The translations under genes and the position numbers were made by a program. A stretch of 37,044 nucleotides of DNA from a virus: IMG/VR virus record IMGVR_UViG_3300027906_000060, positions 1-37,044 of that record; one strand, 5' to 3'. The notes below the pieces were generated by a model. That model was not told the DNA's origin and made no database searches. It was given only the letters and a program-made list of their open reading frames with translations. Below are positions 25,866 through 35,800 of the stretch, in pieces. Each line of letters begins with the position of its first letter. Positions within the stretch are counted from its first letter, which is position 1.

Positions 25866-27452
25866 CTATTGATTTAATTTTTTCTTAATATAGTTGGTAA
25901 TAAACCCTGCAGCTAGTTCTTTGGGTAATGGTAATTCGCTCTGAGGGTTCATCATATCTGCCCATGTATAACTAGGGTCTATAAGCCAATTATGATATCC
26001 AAATACTAATGGAGGTTGTCTTGTTATACAGGGTTCGTCGGTGTACCATTCATGTTCTAAGAAGTCTATTGCCTGATATAAGTTCATATTATCATTTTTC
26101 CAGTTCATAAATGCCATTTCTTCTTCAAAGGTACTCTCTTTAGATTTAAGTGTTCTTGATATACCTTCATCTTCTCGCCTAATCAGTTCCTCATATAAGC
26201 CTCTAAATCGTTTTTGATCTCCATCTACCCATGGTGCATTGTTGCCATTACTTTCCTCTATTGTGGTTCTAAGATAACCATACTTAGTTGGATTCTCAGC
26301 AAACCTACTTTGTTCTTCAAAAGGCCTTGCAACATCAGGTATCCATAATGGATTCATTGTAGCTGAATTACCTACGCTATGTGTTGTGCTTCCCCAATAA
26401 TCTCTATACCACTTTTTTGTTTCTCTTAATGTTTCTAATGTTTCGTGTGGTAGTCCTGCTATTAAACTACAATGTCCAGAGTAAGGTCCTCTCTCCCTCA
26501 TATATTCCCTGTAACGCAAGAGTCCATCTTGTAACTTAACAGACTCCATACCCTTTCCTACACTCTTAGCAGACTTTGTATTAAAGGATTCAACACCATA
26601 GAACTGTGAATTTAATCCTATATCATCAATCATTTGCCAGTTTTCAGGTTTAGATATTAATAAATCTGCTCTGATATAACCACTCATATTAGGTTTAAAG
26701 GGCAATTTAGTTATTACATTGGCATACCTTTGAAGTTTTTCTGTGTAGTCGTTTACTGTTTCGTCGGATATAGAGTAGTTTGTTGTGCCCCATTTATTAT
26801 AATTTTCTAATAGTTCGTTATATAGATTATCCTCAGCTCTACTGTGGTCGTCTTTTATATTCCTATGTGTTAATGTACAGAAGTGGCAATTAAATATACA
26901 ACCTCTACCAAATTCTACTGTTAATACTTCTTGAGGTTGAATATAATCTCTCTCCTCATAATGTGTAGATAAATCCTTCATACGAGCTGCCATATAATCA
27001 TGTGTAGCATCTACTCGTTTAAATGTAGGTCCATCTAACCATTTGTGTTCTGTATATTTAGCTGTTCCTTTAAGAATAGCATCCATAGCTAATTCACCAT
27101 AACCATGTACCATATAGTCTAATGGTAGTCCTTGTGTATTATAGAGTGCCTGAGAACCTCCTATGATTATAACATCTGGATATTGTTCTTTAAACCAAGG
27201 TACAAATTCGTACAATGTTTTAAATCTAATTGAGAATGTGGCGCTAAGTCCTAGAAATTTTGTTTTGTTTGTTACTCTTTGCCTAGCGAATTCTTTTAAT
27301 TCGTCAAGAGTCCACGACTGTACAAAATCTAATACCTCGACATCCCAGCCCTGTTTCCTGAGATGTGTTGCAATTTTGTGTGCTCCGGGTGCTCGTTTGA
27401 TTGAATCATAATAATAGTCAACCACACCACCCAATATAATACCGTGGTTCAT
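25866..27452 (-). CDS. B12-binding-type radical SAM enzyme (paralog B, 528 aa)
   Basis: The Fe-S motif is Cys185, Cys189 and Cys192 (RGCIFNCHFC). The N-terminal part (NHGIILGGVV, IKRAPGAHKIATHLRKQGW) and the DETVNDYTEKLQRYANVI and LPFKPNMSGYIRADL blocks match paralog A at 1658-3292 nearly position for position, without that protein's insert near residues 13-38. It is placed between two virion-type genes and has its own late box (27458-27465), so paralog B is probably late while A is not. The late context suggests a substrate present during assembly. Reaction unknown. Confidence 0.9.
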   Translation of the reverse strand: MNHGIILGGVVDYYYDSIKRAPGAHKIATHLRKQGWDVEVLDFVQSWTLDELKEFARQRVTNKTKFLGLSATFSIRFKTLYEFVPWFKEQYPDVIIIGGSQALYNTQGLPLDYMVHGYGELAMDAILKGTAKYTEHKWLDGPTFKRVDATHDYMAARMKDLSTHYEERDYIQPQEVLTVEFGRGCIFNCHFCTLTHRNIKDDHSRAEDNLYNELLENYNKWGTTNYSISDETVNDYTEKLQRYANVITKLPFKPNMSGYIRADLLISKPENWQMIDDIGLNSQFYGVESFNTKSAKSVGKGMESVKLQDGLLRYREYMRERGPYSGHCSLIAGLPHETLETLRETKKWYRDYWGSTTHSVGNSATMNPLWIPDVARPFEEQSRFAENPTKYGYLRTTIEESNGNNAPWVDGDQKRFRGLYEELIRREDEGISRTLKSKESTFEEEMAFMNWKNDNMNLYQAIDFLEHEWYTDEPCITRQPPLVFGYHNWLIDPSYTWADMMNPQSELPLPKELAAGFITNYIKKKLNQ

Positions 27453-27470: not shown

Positions 27471-28724
27471 TTAACCTACTGAATATGAGAATGCCTTGTA
27501 CGCCTTACTTGCTTTCTTAAGTGTAGGTCCACCGGATCTAATTCTAGATGGTGCTTTAGGTTTCTTAGGTGCTTTGTATTTACCACCAGACTTAATTTTA
27601 TATCGTTTTGCCTTTTGTGAAGATGCTGAACGAACTGGTTTAGCTGCTTTATACCGTTTACTATGAGATGGCCTTCTTTTACCTCTTTGAGTAAGACGCT
27701 TGATCTCATTCTTTCTCATCTGAGGTAATAGTTTAACTGATATACGACTTACTAGTGGAGCAAATCGTTTAATCATTCTTTCTAAACGAGCCTTCTCTGC
27801 AGGTGGTAGGCTTCCTCTATCCCTACCTCTAAGTAGTCGTTTATAAACCATGAGCCTTGCACCCCTGGTTGCTCTTCTTTTTAATCTGTCAGGAGTTGAA
27901 CCCCTTCTTAGTGCTATGTTTCTAGCTACTCTTAATTTTTGTTTATTTCTTCGTGCGTTAAATCGTCTTTTTAAACGACCCTGTACAGATAATGCCTCTG
28001 TTATTTCTACTTCGTTATCAAACCCTGGTGTATTATCAAAGTCTTGATCTATAAGTTCTTCTTCATCATACAATCCATCTTTTACTGCTTGATCAAATGT
28101 ATAATTCTCTGCTTCTTTATCTAAGAAGTCTATATCTTCTTGTTCTATATACCAATCACCATCTTTACCTGTTAGCCAATGTCCTTTATCACCTGTATCA
28201 AATGTTTCTTTTTCATTGTTAATAGGATATTGGTGTTTACTATGGTCTGCTTGATTAGGTTCAATTGAAGTTAAATCAAATTCTTCTTTGTTATGATGTT
28301 TCCAAGCAGTAGCGTATGCTATAGACTTTTCTCTGTCTGTTAGTTTGCCGTCTTTAGAATATGACTTTTTAATGTGTTTAACCATTCTTTCTGCTTTGGC
28401 AGTAGGTGGTGCGTCTTCGTTTATACCTCTGTCTTTTTTCCAATCCAACTCAGGTTTCTTTTTAAGTCCTAGTTTACCTCTGATTTTATTTCCTACTCGT
28501 CTTTTAGCTTCTGAATACTCAGGTTCAAATTGTTGGCGTAGTCCTTCTGTAACTTTAACACCTTTCTCGTCTTCAGGTTTTCTTGCCTTTATATTAAGAG
28601 GCTTTAATGGCATTTCTCTTTCTTTGCCTTCACCAGGTGTTAAAGATTTAAAATAGTCTGTGCCTTGAGGTGTTCCCCATTCCATACCACCCGGAGTAGG
28701 ATCATATCTAGCATCTTCAGACAT
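27471..28724 (-). CDS. Basic virion-type protein, possibly made only by frameshift (417 aa)
   Basis: The first half has patches typical of marine phage virion proteins (KLTDREKSIAYATAWKHHN near residues 128-147), and residues 250-417 are extremely basic, rich in Arg and Lys (SRRPSHSKRYKAAK-like stretches). The ATG at 28724 has neither a Shine-Dalgarno nor a promoter box upstream, unlike its neighbours. The same frame is open upstream without a start codon as far as 28810, where it meets the A9 run at the end of the previous gene. I infer it is translated as a -1 fusion with that gene; independent translation is the alternative. Confidence 0.65.
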   Translation of the reverse strand: MSEDARYDPTPGGMEWGTPQGTDYFKSLTPGEGKEREMPLKPLNIKARKPEDEKGVKVTEGLRQQFEPEYSEAKRRVGNKIRGKLGLKKKPELDWKKDRGINEDAPPTAKAERMVKHIKKSYSKDGKLTDREKSIAYATAWKHHNKEEFDLTSIEPNQADHSKHQYPINNEKETFDTGDKGHWLTGKDGDWYIEQEDIDFLDKEAENYTFDQAVKDGLYDEEELIDQDFDNTPGFDNEVEITEALSVQGRLKRRFNARRNKQKLRVARNIALRRGSTPDRLKRRATRGARLMVYKRLLRGRDRGSLPPAEKARLERMIKRFAPLVSRISVKLLPQMRKNEIKRLTQRGKRRPSHSKRYKAAKPVRSASSQKAKRYKIKSGGKYKAPKKPKAPSRIRSGGPTLKKASKAYKAFSYSVG

Positions 28725-28807
28725 AGCTTTATCTTGGTGATGCCACCAATTTTTATCTCTTGCTTTGGATTGTTTATTTAAGTCCTTCTTTGCAGACTTA
28801 GGATAGT

Positions 28808-30082
28808 TTATCTTTTTTTTTGAGATGCCAGTCTTTTGGCAATGTTCTTGCCAGATACTGGATTTGAATGTTTGTTTTTGCTAGGATCTACTTTATAACC
28901 TGTTCTCTTTTCTGCATCTTTAATAGATGCTCGAGCTTTGTCTAATCCTCTGGATACTAAGTTTGCTAATGACTCTGCAACTCTTTTTTGTTCTTCTTTA
29001 AGACTTGGGAAACCTTGTGGTGCTGTAGATGTTCCCATTACATCAACCATCTTACCTGTTTTCTTATCTCTTTTTTGTCCAACTCTTACTGTAGATGTTT
29101 TTGCTTTTGTTCTATTAAATGAATTAGACTTAGGATCTCTTTCTATTCCTTCAGACCAATCTTTTCTAACTATTTCTTTTCCGCCAGGTCCAATGTCTGT
29201 TACTTTAGTTTTAATAGGTTTGTTATATTTAATCTTAACTGTTTTAAGACTATCTTTACCTTTAAAATGTACTACAGGTTTCTTAGCTTCCATTACTTTA
29301 GGAGACTCAGGTGGTAGTCCAGCCTTCTTAAGTTTTTCTTTTGTTCTTTTATCTGAAACAACCGGGTTATAATTGTCTCTAGAAGACTCTTTAGTGTAAG
29401 TTCTTTTTCTTTCGTAACCACCTTTAGTTTTAACAATACCTGAGTCTGATGTCTTTTTATAACCTGCTGCAGCGTGTGCTTTATCATTTAGTTTATCTGC
29501 TTCTTCTTTACTTCCTGTCTTAATAGTAACAGCTTCTTTAAAATGCCATGTCTTACCTTCTTTATCTGCATGGTGTTTTGTGAAGTGTTTGTGTATTTGT
29601 TCTCTTGAAGCTGTATCTGAAGCACCATGTTTTTCATGTTTCTTCATAGCAGCGTCTACATGTTTAAGATCTCCTGAAGGATGCGTTACAGCTTTATGTA
29701 TATCATCATGTGCTTTTTTATCTGGGTGTCCAGTTTTGTCATTGCTATAAAGTTGATATTTGTTTTTCTTATGATCGCTCCAATCTTCAGATAGTCTTTT
29801 AGATTCTTTAGCTCTTTCTTTAGGTGTAAGTTTCATAAAACCTGATGCTAATGCTTTTTCGTTCTCTTTAGCTCTTTGCTTTAATAAGTTACTTGATACT
29901 GGTTTCTTTAAAGGTCTGCCAGAAGCTAAATCCTCTCTAACAACATGATATCTTTTAGGTGAACCACAGCTTCTACATTGATCGCTACGGTTTTTCTCTG
30001 CACCACAGTCGCCACAATCCCAGCCTGTCTTAGCTGCTCGGCCACCATCATACATTTTTCTAGCTTCTAAGAATGTCTTCAT
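28808..30082 (-). CDS. Basic virion-type protein with zinc-ribbon N-terminus (424 aa)
   Basis: The N-terminus carries a zinc ribbon (CGDCGAEKNRSDQCRSCG near residues 23-40). It is followed by a histidine-rich stretch (KKAHDDIHKAVTH, HKHFTKHHADKEGK) and a long basic tail with conserved-looking segments of a DUF5872-like kind (GASDTASREQ, GYKVDPSKN). The last codons are CAA AAA AAA AGA TAA, an A9 run compatible with -1 slippage into 27471-28724. The late box TATAAATA stands 5 nt before the ATG. Homologues of these segments occur in T4-like marine phage structural proteins; the subunit is not known. Confidence 0.7.
   Translation of the reverse strand: MKTFLEARKMYDGGRAAKTGWDCGDCGAEKNRSDQCRSCGSPKRYHVVREDLASGRPLKKPVSSNLLKQRAKENEKALASGFMKLTPKERAKESKRLSEDWSDHKKNKYQLYSNDKTGHPDKKAHDDIHKAVTHPSGDLKHVDAAMKKHEKHGASDTASREQIHKHFTKHHADKEGKTWHFKEAVTIKTGSKEEADKLNDKAHAAAGYKKTSDSGIVKTKGGYERKRTYTKESSRDNYNPVVSDKRTKEKLKKAGLPPESPKVMEAKKPVVHFKGKDSLKTVKIKYNKPIKTKVTDIGPGGKEIVRKDWSEGIERDPKSNSFNRTKAKTSTVRVGQKRDKKTGKMVDVMGTSTAPQGFPSLKEEQKRVAESLANLVSRGLDKARASIKDAEKRTGYKVDPSKNKHSNPVSGKNIAKRLASQKKR
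28813..28822 (-). other. Candidate -1 frameshift or slippage site (C plus A9)
   Basis: The minus strand reads C followed by nine A, in frame as CAA AAA AAA AGA TAA. A -1 shift here reads AAG ATA AAC TAT CCT, which is open without stop through 28725-28810 and joins the ATG frame of the 27471-28724 gene. A_AAA_AAA is a known slippery heptamer type, and A9 also permits transcriptional slippage. No clear stimulatory hairpin was seen. A one-base sequencing error in the homopolymer would give the same picture. Confidence 0.55.
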
Positions 30083-30087
30083 ACTCT

Positions 30088-30095
30088 TATTTATA
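30088..30095 (-). promoter_or_regulatory. Late promoter, 5 nt from the ATG
   Basis: TATAAATA then AGAGT then the ATG at 30082, in an 18-nt gap after the o-spanin gene stop at 30101. Confidence 0.75.
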
Positions 30096-30100
30096 CAAGT

Positions 30101-30499
30101 TTAGTCTTTGGCTTTTTCATCTTCCAAAACTATTTCTGCTTTAACTCCTGTAATAGATTGTTCGTAGTATATAATAATAGTCTTTTGTTGTTCTATATAT
30201 CGTTTTAATTCACCTATGTTAAGTGATAAGTTCTCATAATCAGGAACAGATAGAGCAAAATATACTATATCTGGATTATTTTTAGCGAATTTTTCTTTAA
30301 ATTCTTCATAATTATCTTCTGTAACTGCATAGAATTCTACAGGAAACATTGTTACACCCTTAGGATGCCCTTGTATTGGTATTTGCTTTTCTACGAATTT
30401 AGTTTGTACTTCTACCTGTTTGGGTATTAGACTACAACCACTAGTCAATGCTAGTAGCAGTACTAGACTCGAGATCGTCAAGAATCTTTTTTGTTGCAC
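30101..30499 (-). CDS. o-spanin-like outer-membrane lipoprotein (132 aa)
   Basis: A lipoprotein signal peptide ends in the lipobox LTSGC with the lipidated Cys at residue 22, so the mature protein sits on the inner leaflet of the outer membrane. The remainder is short, with predicted helix. It overlaps the i-spanin gene by 59 nt in a different frame, the classic Rz/Rz1 arrangement. Together they would fuse inner and outer membranes in the last lysis step. The pairing is a strong structural inference; there is no sequence family I can name. Confidence 0.75.
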   Translation of the reverse strand: MQQKRFLTISSLVLLLALTSGCSLIPKQVEVQTKFVEKQIPIQGHPKGVTMFPVEFYAVTEDNYEEFKEKFAKNNPDIVYFALSVPDYENLSLNIGELKRYIEQQKTIIIYYEQSITGVKAEIVLEDEKAKD

Positions 30500-30812
30500 T
30501 ATTCACTCTCCGTTCAATTAACCCTGGTTTCTTCAGAGTCAACATTGTTAAATCATGTTCTCTTAACTTTTTCGCTAAGTTATCACCGTAAGCCTCAGAG
30601 GCTTTTAATTTTACATTTAGTTCTTTGTTTAGAACTTGTTGTTGTTCGTAATCCTGTGTTAATTTATCTATTGTGTCTTGGTTAGTCCTTGCCGCAATAG
30701 TTAATTTAGCATTATTTTCTGTTAAAACTGTCAGCCTTTTTTCCGTTAGCCAATAGTAACCACCAAAAGCTAATACCATGGCAACAATAATACCAATCAG
30801 GATTTTGCTCAT
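30441..30812 (-). CDS. i-spanin-like inner-membrane protein (123 aa)
   Basis: One N-terminal transmembrane segment (ILIGIIVAMVLAFGGYYWL, residues 4-22) and a long coiled-coil-prone periplasmic domain (TQDYEQQQVLNKELNVKLK) fit an inner-membrane spanin. Its end overlaps the o-spanin gene by 59 nt and its start overlaps the upstream gene by 4 nt (ATGA). The partner for lysis is the lipoprotein above. The assignment rests on topology and gene arrangement. Confidence 0.75.
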   Translation of the reverse strand: MSKILIGIIVAMVLAFGGYYWLTEKRLTVLTENNAKLTIAARTNQDTIDKLTQDYEQQQVLNKELNVKLKASEAYGDNLAKKLREHDLTMLTLKKPGLIERRVNSATKKILDDLESSTATSID

Positions 30813-31051
30813 TTCTTATAGACCTCTTTTTCAAGTTTATCTATTCGTTCAGCTAACATGGGATAATCTGATCTCCATTTAGCTTCTTTTTTGGCAATTT
30901 CAATATTATATCTATCTGCTAAAAATGCCATTAGTTTGTTTATTTTAAGTTGAAACCATGCGCCAACTTTTGTATTAAGAAACCACTTACTAAATGCGTT
31001 TCCAAATACTGCTGTTACACATGCAATTGCTAGTCTAGTTAATATTAGCAT
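30809..31051 (-). CDS. Small membrane protein of the lysis region (80 aa)
   Basis: Hydrophobic segment at about residues 2-20 (LILTRLAIACVTAVFGNAF), then an amphipathic basic helical part (SKWFLNTKVGAWFQLK) and a charged C-terminus. Comparable proteins (MLILTRLA...) occur beside spanin genes in marine T4-like phages. It could be a holin-like or anchoring protein, but this is inference. ATGA overlap couples it to the i-spanin gene. Confidence 0.6.
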   Translation of the reverse strand: MLILTRLAIACVTAVFGNAFSKWFLNTKVGAWFQLKINKLMAFLADRYNIEIAKKEAKWRSDYPMLAERIDKLEKEVYKK

Positions 31052-31668
31052 TCTTCTGTTAAGAATGTTTTGAAATCTAACATTCCCCTCTCCTCTTTTT
31101 GTAAATTCATACCCTGTCTTGTTGCTTTAAATAACTTCTTAGCATGATCGTCTGAATGGTTAGGATGTAATCCTGCTTTAAAAGATTTATAATCATTACC
31201 ACTAGCATGATTTCTCATCTTTGTTCCACTAATTCCTGCTACTCCTTCTGCATCAGGGTCTCTATGTCCTGCAGATAAGATGTGTATCTTTTTATAATTA
31301 TATTCTTTTCCATTGTATTTGTGTGCTAGAGCTTTAAACTGTTTTACTCTATCACTACCCACAACCATTGTTGCGTGTGTATGTCCTTCTTGATGAAACT
31401 TTTTAAGTTGCGCTAAAAAGTGTGGGTGTTCTTTTGTAGAATGTTCAAAATTTACATCAGGGTGAATATGTTTTAAATACTCTTTTTTGTGCTCGTGATG
31501 TAATGGATCTTTTTTACTGTTTTGTGAATGACTTACAACGACTGCATGGTTAGCACCTATTTTTTGTGCATGTGAATGGACTTTATCCACTACCTTACTA
31601 TGTCCAGCAGTAGGTGGGTTCATCCTACCATATGAAAATACTATATGTTTTTCTTGTTCGTCTGCCAT
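31045..31668 (-). CDS. Histidine-rich cytidylyltransferase-like protein (207 aa)
   Basis: The nucleotidyltransferase signature PTAGH (residues 19-23, the HxGH type) and the ISGTKMR motif near 146-152 (the ISxTxxR type) place it among NMN-adenylyl- and cytidylyltransferase-like enzymes. It is remarkable for about 24 histidines in 207 residues, many in pairs or next to Lys. Like the DUF6267-like gene before it, which it overlaps by TAATG, it recurs in marine T4-like phages. The substrate is unknown. The His-rich composition may suit metal binding or acidic interiors of the virion; that is inference. Confidence 0.7.
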   Translation of the reverse strand: MADEQEKHIVFSYGRMNPPTAGHSKVVDKVHSHAQKIGANHAVVVSHSQNSKKDPLHHEHKKEYLKHIHPDVNFEHSTKEHPHFLAQLKKFHQEGHTHATMVVGSDRVKQFKALAHKYNGKEYNYKKIHILSAGHRDPDAEGVAGISGTKMRNHASGNDYKSFKAGLHPNHSDDHAKKLFKATRQGMNLQKEERGMLDFKTFLTEEC

Positions 31669-32831
31669 TATCCTTTGTTGAAATTAGCTGCGCTAAATTC
31701 ACTCCTGTCTACAAATTTAGAAGGTCTGCCATTTCTTATGGCAACAAAACCTTCTGGTTTACTTTTAGCTCCGCCTATCTCATGCCCCCATTCTGACTTT
31801 TGAGATAGTGTATTTGTAATAATATTCTTTGCCGCTTGTAAATGCTTGTGCATATTCATTGGGCCTTCAAAGTGTTCCTTATTCTTATTTATATGACCTA
31901 TGGTGTTATCCATAGTTGTTTGATGTCTTGCTTTAGCTGCGTCTGTTTTAACACCATCTATTTTTTTCTGATGTTTAGCACTAGCATGCGCTACAAATCC
32001 TTCATGAGAATATGCTTCTCCTGTTCTTACCGTGTGGTTAATATATGTTTTCTTAGCCACTGCATGTTTCATTACAGTATCGTGATGTTCTTTAGGTGTG
32101 TTTTTAAAGTGTGCCACTGCTTGTTCTAAGTGATGATCTACTTGTTTACGATCTTCTAGGCTATACCTATGTGTGCTAGTATCATGATTAGCACTCATTA
32201 GGTGTACATCTTTATGTTTTTTGAATGTAGAATTGTCAATAGCACCATGTTTTGCTTTCAAAGATGCTATATTTTTCCCTTCGTATTCTGTATGTATTGC
32301 TAATCCTAGTTTAGAACTTTTAGCTGCTTTACCATGATCTGAATCTGCTGGTGCGTGATATGTAATTGTGTTAGGTGTAAAATCTACTCTATTATTCTTT
32401 TTATCATGTTTAACATCTCCAGAGTGCATGATGTCTGCTTGATATATACCATTAGGTTCTATTTTATGTGCGTGATCTAATGCTGCACTTAACTTCTTCA
32501 TAAGTCCAGGCGCATGTCCGTGATTTTTTGCTATGTCTTCGTGTGTATGGTTTATCTTAGGATTCTTATTAAATGCTGATTTAGATGAAACAAAAAACTT
32601 ACCATTCTCTGGGTGTTTTCCAAATACAATAGCAGGACTTCCATCATATTTAACAGTTGTCTGCGTCTGTCCTGAACCTTTACCTTGTAATCCGTTATGA
32701 ACATCATTAATAGTATGGAACGCATGTCCAAAACCCTCATGGCCAGCATGAATGACATGGTCCTCAACATGTTCTAAATGTTTGAGTTTATCCTCTTCTT
32801 TATCTTCTTTTAAAAATTCAGTAAATCTCAT
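31668..32831 (-). CDS. DUF6267-like, ligase-like nucleotidyltransferase candidate (387 aa)
   Basis: Residues 57-66 (QTTVKYDGSP) hold the KxDG motif I of DNA/RNA ligases (Lys61), and GIYQADIMHSGD and FVAIRNGRPSK could be later motifs. It resembles the DUF6267 family of T4-like marine phages by overall layout. About 41 of 387 residues are histidine. The late box TATAAATA is 5 nt before the ATG, without Shine-Dalgarno. RNA- or DNA-ligase activity is a motif-based inference; the family may use the KxDG chemistry for something else. Confidence 0.65.
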   Translation of the reverse strand: MRFTEFLKEDKEEDKLKHLEHVEDHVIHAGHEGFGHAFHTINDVHNGLQGKGSGQTQTTVKYDGSPAIVFGKHPENGKFFVSSKSAFNKNPKINHTHEDIAKNHGHAPGLMKKLSAALDHAHKIEPNGIYQADIMHSGDVKHDKKNNRVDFTPNTITYHAPADSDHGKAAKSSKLGLAIHTEYEGKNIASLKAKHGAIDNSTFKKHKDVHLMSANHDTSTHRYSLEDRKQVDHHLEQAVAHFKNTPKEHHDTVMKHAVAKKTYINHTVRTGEAYSHEGFVAHASAKHQKKIDGVKTDAAKARHQTTMDNTIGHINKNKEHFEGPMNMHKHLQAAKNIITNTLSQKSEWGHEIGGAKSKPEGFVAIRNGRPSKFVDRSEFSAANFNKG

Positions 32832-35724: not shown

Positions 35725-35800
35725 TGGAGCTCGGAATAGGATTTGAACCTACGACCTGATGATTACAAATCATCTGCTCTACCAACTGAGCTATCCGAGC
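35725..35800 (-). tRNA. tRNA-Thr (anticodon UGU)
   Basis: A full cloverleaf reads on the minus strand: acceptor arms GCTCGGA and TCCGAGC, a D arm with TAGCTCAGTTGGTAGAGC, an anticodon stem GATGA/TCATC with loop TTTGTAA (anticodon TGT, decoding ACA), a T arm with GGTTCAAATCC, and an encoded CCA end after a T discriminator. The anticodon bases are at 35765-35767. An AT-rich phage would benefit from ACA decoding. Gene size is 76 nt. Confidence 0.95.

Follow-up and report, generated by a model that had tools for sequence, protein, structure and literature searches.

A conserved A9 run, very probably a programmed slippage site, joins two genes in the -1 frame in marine T4-like viruses

The window analysed here is a whole metagenomic virus record from IMG/VR, 37,044 bases in length. 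On its minus strand lie two consecutive coding regions, gene A and B, whose coordinates are collected with those of the associated features in Table 1. The product of gene A has a zinc-ribbon-like CxxC...CxxC motif at its N-terminus, and the remainder of the protein is basic, of low complexity and modular. Read directly on the minus strand, the 3' end of the gene is GCA TCT CAA AAA AAA AGA TAA, and the initial annotation was therefore right to place an A9 run at the very end of this ORF. Its further claim, that the -1 frame stays open across the junction into the downstream gene, also held over the whole length of that frame. The -1 fusion has a computed length of 423 + 1 + 446 = 870 residues, the figure of about 870 that had been proposed; B accounts for the 446 residues after KKK and has the C-terminus ...SKAYKAFSYSVG, followed by the stop codon. 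The AAG codon of the run is separated by 87 nt from the first in-frame ATG (28722-28724), and ATG, GTG and TTG are all absent from this stretch, as the initial annotation had stated for standard start codons. Upstream of that ATG we looked for a ribosome site and for the TATAAATA box and found neither, which bears out the description of B as an ORF lacking both.

Table 1. Features at the A/B junction of the window and at the related junction of cultured cyanophages
Feature	Position	Strand	Remarks
T4-type late promoter box TATAAATA	30088-30095	minus	5 nt upstream of the gene A ATG
Gene A, 424 aa	28808-30082	minus	0-frame product terminates ...LASQKKR, then stop
-1 ORF including the C-terminal extension B	27471-28880	minus	open throughout
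Possible hairpin 5' of the run (CCAGT...ACTGG)	28828-28861	minus	6 nt before the run; also in L003, L006 and L060
A9 slippery run	28813-28821	minus	phase CAA AAA AAA AGA; in-phase heptamer A_AAA_AAA
0-frame stop TAA	28808-28810	minus	immediately 3' of the A9 run
-1-frame stretch from the run to the first in-frame ATG	28725-28811	minus	conserved as protein (IPKSAKKDL..NWWKHQDKSM)
Possible stem-loop 3' of the run (TAAGTCT / GGACTTA)	28779-28800	minus	
Annotatable ORF B, from ATG 28724	27471-28724	minus	ATG without Shine-Dalgarno site or late box
T4-GC842 slippery site	L022:10463-10479 (S-PM2 NC_006820 ~107517-107533)		also in L114, L115, L116 and L117

The gene just upstream of A (30101-30812, minus strand) overlaps its neighbour and gave an Rz-like spanin match (phrog_812), and a gene pair that includes the Rz-like spanin gene precedes A in most relatives too. 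On the other side of the junction, a radical SAM protein with a B12-binding-like domain (25866-27452, minus strand; Pfam E 1.3e-10) adjoins B, as it does in several relatives. A tRNA-Thr with the anticodon tgt (35725-35800, minus strand) was the sole RNA gene detected in the window. Late boxes of the form (T/C)ATAAATA lie a few nucleotides before the ATG of gene A and of the genes starting at 32831, 27452, 25843, 23077 and 15825. The genes with such ATG-proximal boxes have no Shine-Dalgarno sites, and the combination of the two properties suggests that the late mRNAs are nearly leaderless.

For the comparison of the junction among relatives that the initial annotation had proposed, A and B individually, and alignments of the two, served as queries against IMG/VR. 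The results showed a run at the A/B junction in thirteen lineages. In eleven of them, comprising 19 contigs (the window, L002, L003-L005, L006, L007-L009, L010-L013, L014, L015, L031-L032, L060 and, as a variant, L037), an A9 or A10 run ends one gene and the continuation lies in the -1 frame. The run is A9 in ten of these lineages and A10 in one (L014). In ten lineages, 0-4 codons separate the slippery codons from the frame-0 stop, and the reading phase is NAA AAA AAA in every case. In the variant L037 the run reads GTA AAA AAA AAG, frame 0 stays open about 14 codons longer, and the short module reached in the -1 frame is that of L015. The module that follows the run differs by lineage (IPKSAKKDL..., IDHFDGSVLKS..., EVAPPSAKHERM... 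or MIAGSAASG...), and the run persists through this exchange of downstream modules, in constant phase and with a continuation in the -1 frame. L035 and L041, on the other hand, have a single unbroken fused ORF with A10 and A11, respectively, at the same place (CAA AAA AAA AAG and CAA AAA AAA AAA). Because these two lineages encode the fusion as their default ORF, the fused protein appears to be a natural product. L061 has no run and encodes A and B as two distinct genes, with an ATG for B immediately behind the stop of A. Further scans for the junction yielded no additional lineage.

These comparisons bear on the possibility, raised at the outset as the dull reading of the junction, that the run is a homopolymer sequencing or assembly error, in which case the actual genome would have A10 (or A7) and a continuous ORF. 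In favour of an error, the window is a contig assembled from a metagenome, long homopolymers of A are prone to misreading, and two relatives do have a continuous ORF with A10 or A11. However, the frame break is not private to one sequence but is common to all 19 contigs of the eleven lineages, the run length is identical between near-identical contigs of different samples and thus in independent assemblies, and frame-0 stops occur within five codons in ten lineages despite different downstream sequences. An error is therefore so improbable that we regard it as effectively excluded. The initial annotation would have counted against slippage any relatives with an unbroken ORF and no A run; the two unbroken relatives found carry A10 and A11. 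Long A runs found in metagenome contigs accordingly call for comparison with relatives before they are dismissed as errors. A different role for the run would be phase variation, in which replication slippage alters the run length and whole genomes switch between the short and the fused form. Lengths of 9, 10 and 11 across the lineages and the in-frame fusion in two of them would fit such switching, but the run length does not vary between near-identical contigs of different samples, and each length is tied to its own neighbouring sequence and not to a single-base change. We therefore consider phase variation very unlikely.

To place the run against the background of its genome, A runs were counted and compared with synonymous shuffles. 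The window contains 3 runs of at least seven A's against 23.6 expected and 1 run of at least eight against 11.1 expected; that one is the A9 run of the junction. A pooled count over 141 genes of fourteen representative loci, junction runs included, gave 34 runs of at least seven A's against 195 expected, and the depletion was similar in all three frames. Frame-independent avoidance of A runs (A7) has been attributed to transcriptional slippage or to mutation (PMC4066793; PMC1088944), and the avoidance of long A runs seen here could reflect mutation instead of slippage. Related loci amounting to about 1.07 Mb, with redundancy, were also scanned for ORFs that terminate at an A7 or A6G heptamer from which a -1 ORF continues. 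The scan found 15 distinct sites, ten at the A/B junction and five at one cyanophage junction, and the identical scan in the +1 frame found 1 site. Both non-fusion frames are closed within 15 nt in 12 of the 13 lineages. Third-frame stops were considered as proof of polymerase slippage and dropped, since the third frame closes within 15 nt about 50% of the time by chance and the observation is not significant.

In most lineages B has no start signal of its own. The first in-frame start after the run lies at +88 in the window, L003, L006 and L010, at +87 in L014, at +109 in L060 and at +199 nt in L002. In L008, L015 and L037 it falls inside the conserved motif SAK.ERM(V/I)KHIKK, and initiation there would consequently cut the module. 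The stretch before the ATG has the pattern of a coding sequence in the -1 frame: among the five lineages with the IPKSAKKDL module, the variable columns number 13, 7 and 17 at codon positions 1, 2 and 3, and the codon changes between L010 and L014 are synonymous in six cases and non-synonymous in two. In L041 the IPKSAKKDL motif recurs within the fused ORF, and in L031 it recurs at a site farther downstream; FDGSVLKS..QQ is common to L002 and L060, in the -1 frame and upstream of their first ATGs. In L015 and L037 the -1 extension is short and its end overlaps the ATG of B, from which we infer that B may be coupled to the slipped product in these two lineages.

These data can be set against the view that B is a separate gene, translated from an ATG of its own through reinitiation or coupling behind the stop of A, and that the run is incidental. 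Such an arrangement is what L061 has, with no run and an ATG of B right behind the stop of A; in L031 an ATG sits 10 nt after the run, and relatives of B are found alone or fused to other domains. In most lineages, however, the first in-frame start lies 40-199 nt past the run and has no Shine-Dalgarno site, the codons upstream of it are conserved as protein, and A9 is kept at the junction against the avoidance of such runs. The separate-gene explanation is thus highly improbable.

Little can be said of the two proteins from their relatives. A tblastn search of 50,697 phage records returned no named relative of gene A. B contains a KHIKK...AYATAWK module (phrog_30733) and a conserved basic helical region (phrog_23027). 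The latter is also present in the phages HTVC008M, phiM12, DLP_6 and BUCT-ZZ01, where the gene settings differ: in Pelagibacter phage HTVC008M it is a separate small gene, and in Stenotrophomonas phage DLP_6 it lies within a protein annotated as a cytidyltransferase. The predicted structure of the conserved part of B has a low overall pLDDT of 62 and shows a helical bundle only at about residues 230-345. A PDB search with this structure gave no match, and its matches among viral structures were uncharacterised or “cytidyltransferase-like” phage proteins. Searches of Pfam and NCBIfam found no family for A or B, and neither these nor the structure search assigned the proteins a function; the GTDB genomes searched held no relative. 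The window also has a cytidyltransferase-like gene at 31045-31668, related to one annotated in S-WAM2, and the T4-GC190 “citidylyltransferase” has been detected in S-SM1 virions (PMC3037559). Given the late box before A and the neighbouring gene of a type found in S-SM1 particles (PMC3037559), a virion role for A and B, which the initial annotation took as given, is plausible. The likely purpose would be to supply a small, constant share of a late protein, nucleic-acid-binding (DNA-binding) or structural, in its long form.

A parallel to the A/B junction exists in cultured cyanophages. Gene A of L060 and T4-GC842 of S-PM2 have in common a module (GLDGKACWKGYK...VDNCV) and phrog_4359. In S-PM2, Syn1, S-CAM1, Sf-CH3 and Sf-FR1, the T4-GC842 gene ends with GAA AAA AAG and then a stop at the T4-GC842/GC843 junction. 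These five sites are canonical A_AAA_AAG heptamers with a conserved -1 continuation, and in S-PM2 and Syn1 an SD-like AAGGAGG lies just upstream. The cyanophage site resembles the A9 junction in that the stop stands directly behind the slippery codons, the -1 continuation is conserved and a module is common with gene A. It differs in having the canonical seven-base site, the SD-like AAGGAGG (S-PM2 and Syn1) and a short extension, which is not B. In S-WAM2, S-H9-1, S-RSM4, S-CAM4 and two ACG-2014 phages, the GC842 junction is an ATGA overlap instead. It thus seems that the devices linking a modular late protein to the module behind it differ among related loci, and the cultured cyanophages with the GC842 junction offer systems in which the question is testable. 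Existing annotations of the cyanophage T4-GC842 genes miss the -1 extension or start it too late.

Taken as such, and whichever machine slips, the A9 run is very probably a conserved programmed slippage site, a reading that is based on the sequence comparisons above. A published criterion for functional slippage is that the 9A overlap is conserved in homologues (PMC1088944), and here the layout and the run are conserved in eleven non-identical lineages. The suggestion of the initial annotation that slippage would give a short and a long form, which drew no distinction between polymerase and ribosome, is likewise supported by the conservation of run, phase and -1 continuation in these lineages. 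In the proposed mechanism, most expression would yield the default product, A alone, with 424 residues and the end QKKR. Some transcripts would acquire an extra A (or be two A's short), and/or some ribosomes would slip by -1 on A_AAA_AAA. Either event would produce the A-B fusion of about 870 residues, which would bear the conserved basic helical domain of B.

We consider it somewhat probable that RNA-polymerase slippage on the nine A's is the main route, with ribosomal -1 slippage as an alternative or an addition. Runs of nine A or T allow efficient slippage by bacterial RNA polymerase (PMC5009743). The junction has sequence features expected of transcriptional slippage, namely a run of at least eight to nine A's and a frame-independent avoidance of such runs elsewhere. 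It also has the in-phase X_XXY_YYZ heptamer expected of ribosomal slippage, in the form of A_AAA_AAA in all -1 lineages. What favours the polymerase is that nine A's are kept, that no stimulator common to all lineages was found and that the in-phase heptamer is A_AAA_AAA and not A_AAA_AAG, which is a strong slippage motif in E. coli (PMC4066793). With regard to stimulators, no Shine-Dalgarno sequence was found upstream of the A9 run, and no universal RNA structure was found at the junction across the lineages. The window, L003, L010 and L014 keep the possible 3' stem-loop, which has undergone a single compensatory change in L014; the stem is broken in L006, and it is absent elsewhere. A search of the window for Rfam families returned none except a tRNA.

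Ribosomal -1 frameshifting alone, by tandem tRNA-Lys slippage on A_AAA_AAA with the adjacent stop and the 3' stem-loop and with no polymerase slippage, would differ from this preferred route in the machine and would still fall within programmed slippage. The heptamer is correctly phased in every -1 lineage, the possible stem of four lineages includes the compensatory change in L014, and A_AAA_AAG occurs at the related junction of some cultured cyanophages. Moreover, the majority of known phage frameshifts are ribosomal (PMC5009743), and it is possible that the 3' stem would suit ribosomal frameshifting in one sub-group. On the other hand, most lineages lack an intact stem, the upstream Shine-Dalgarno sequence is missing and the heptamer in phase is not A_AAA_AAG, the stronger one. 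Seven A's suffice for ribosomal slippage, and yet the two surplus A's are conserved against the genome-wide avoidance. These additional A's could be retained for protein reasons, as they encode Q-K-K-R in frame 0 and K-K-K in the -1 frame. We therefore regard the ribosome-only explanation as a reasonable possibility that falls short of being probable.

With polymerase slippage as the preferred route, the nearest known systems are bacterial. Transcriptional slippage at A9 or T9 is known in Thermus thermophilus dnaX, in IS elements and in Shigella mxiE and spa13, and Chlorobi dnaX has a two-ORF form with A7-A10 (PMC5009743; PMC1088944; PMC3711429). The A9 junction resembles these genes in having nine (to eleven) A's at the end of an ORF, a continuation in the -1 frame, homologues that encode the product as one ORF, and avoidance of such runs elsewhere in the genome. 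It differs from them in belonging to a late gene of a T4-like phage, in the exchange of the post-run module between lineages, and in being a predicted slippage site. Ribosomal -1 frameshifts of phages include those of the tail chaperone G/GT and of the major capsid extensions of T7, T3 and Listeria phages (PMC5009743). The likeness here is a minority product, predicted in the present case, with a C-terminal -1 extension near the stop of the first gene. However, the proteins are others, the homopolymer is longer than a heptamer, there is no shared stimulator, and the extension is modular and as long as the 0-frame product, unlike in those frameshifts.

The A9 junction thus appears to be one more programmed frameshift site of a class already known, and of the two readings polymerase slippage is both the likelier and the more novel. 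In the literature searched we found no prior report of this junction site, and it would therefore represent a conserved programmed frameshift in marine T4-like viruses that has been unreported so far. Gene callers would split its product in two, and the predicted fusion protein of about 870 residues is absent from every annotation. If it is the polymerase that slips, this would be a first clear instance, as far as the literature searched shows, in which a tailed phage uses transcriptional slippage in a late gene. We put forward, as a tentative proposal that stops just short of probable, a model for this T4-like marine phage lineage in which RNA polymerase and not the ribosome slips on the A9 run and so sets the ratio of the two late-protein forms. 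In the same model, the run would be an exchange point for C-terminal modules, and the default would have switched in evolution from the short product with A9 to the fused product with A10 or A11.

In addition, second long A runs occur inside the long ORF of three lineages that otherwise avoid such runs (A9 at L008:5325, A10 at L035:5223 and A9 at L041:5330). Slippage at these runs would truncate the product.
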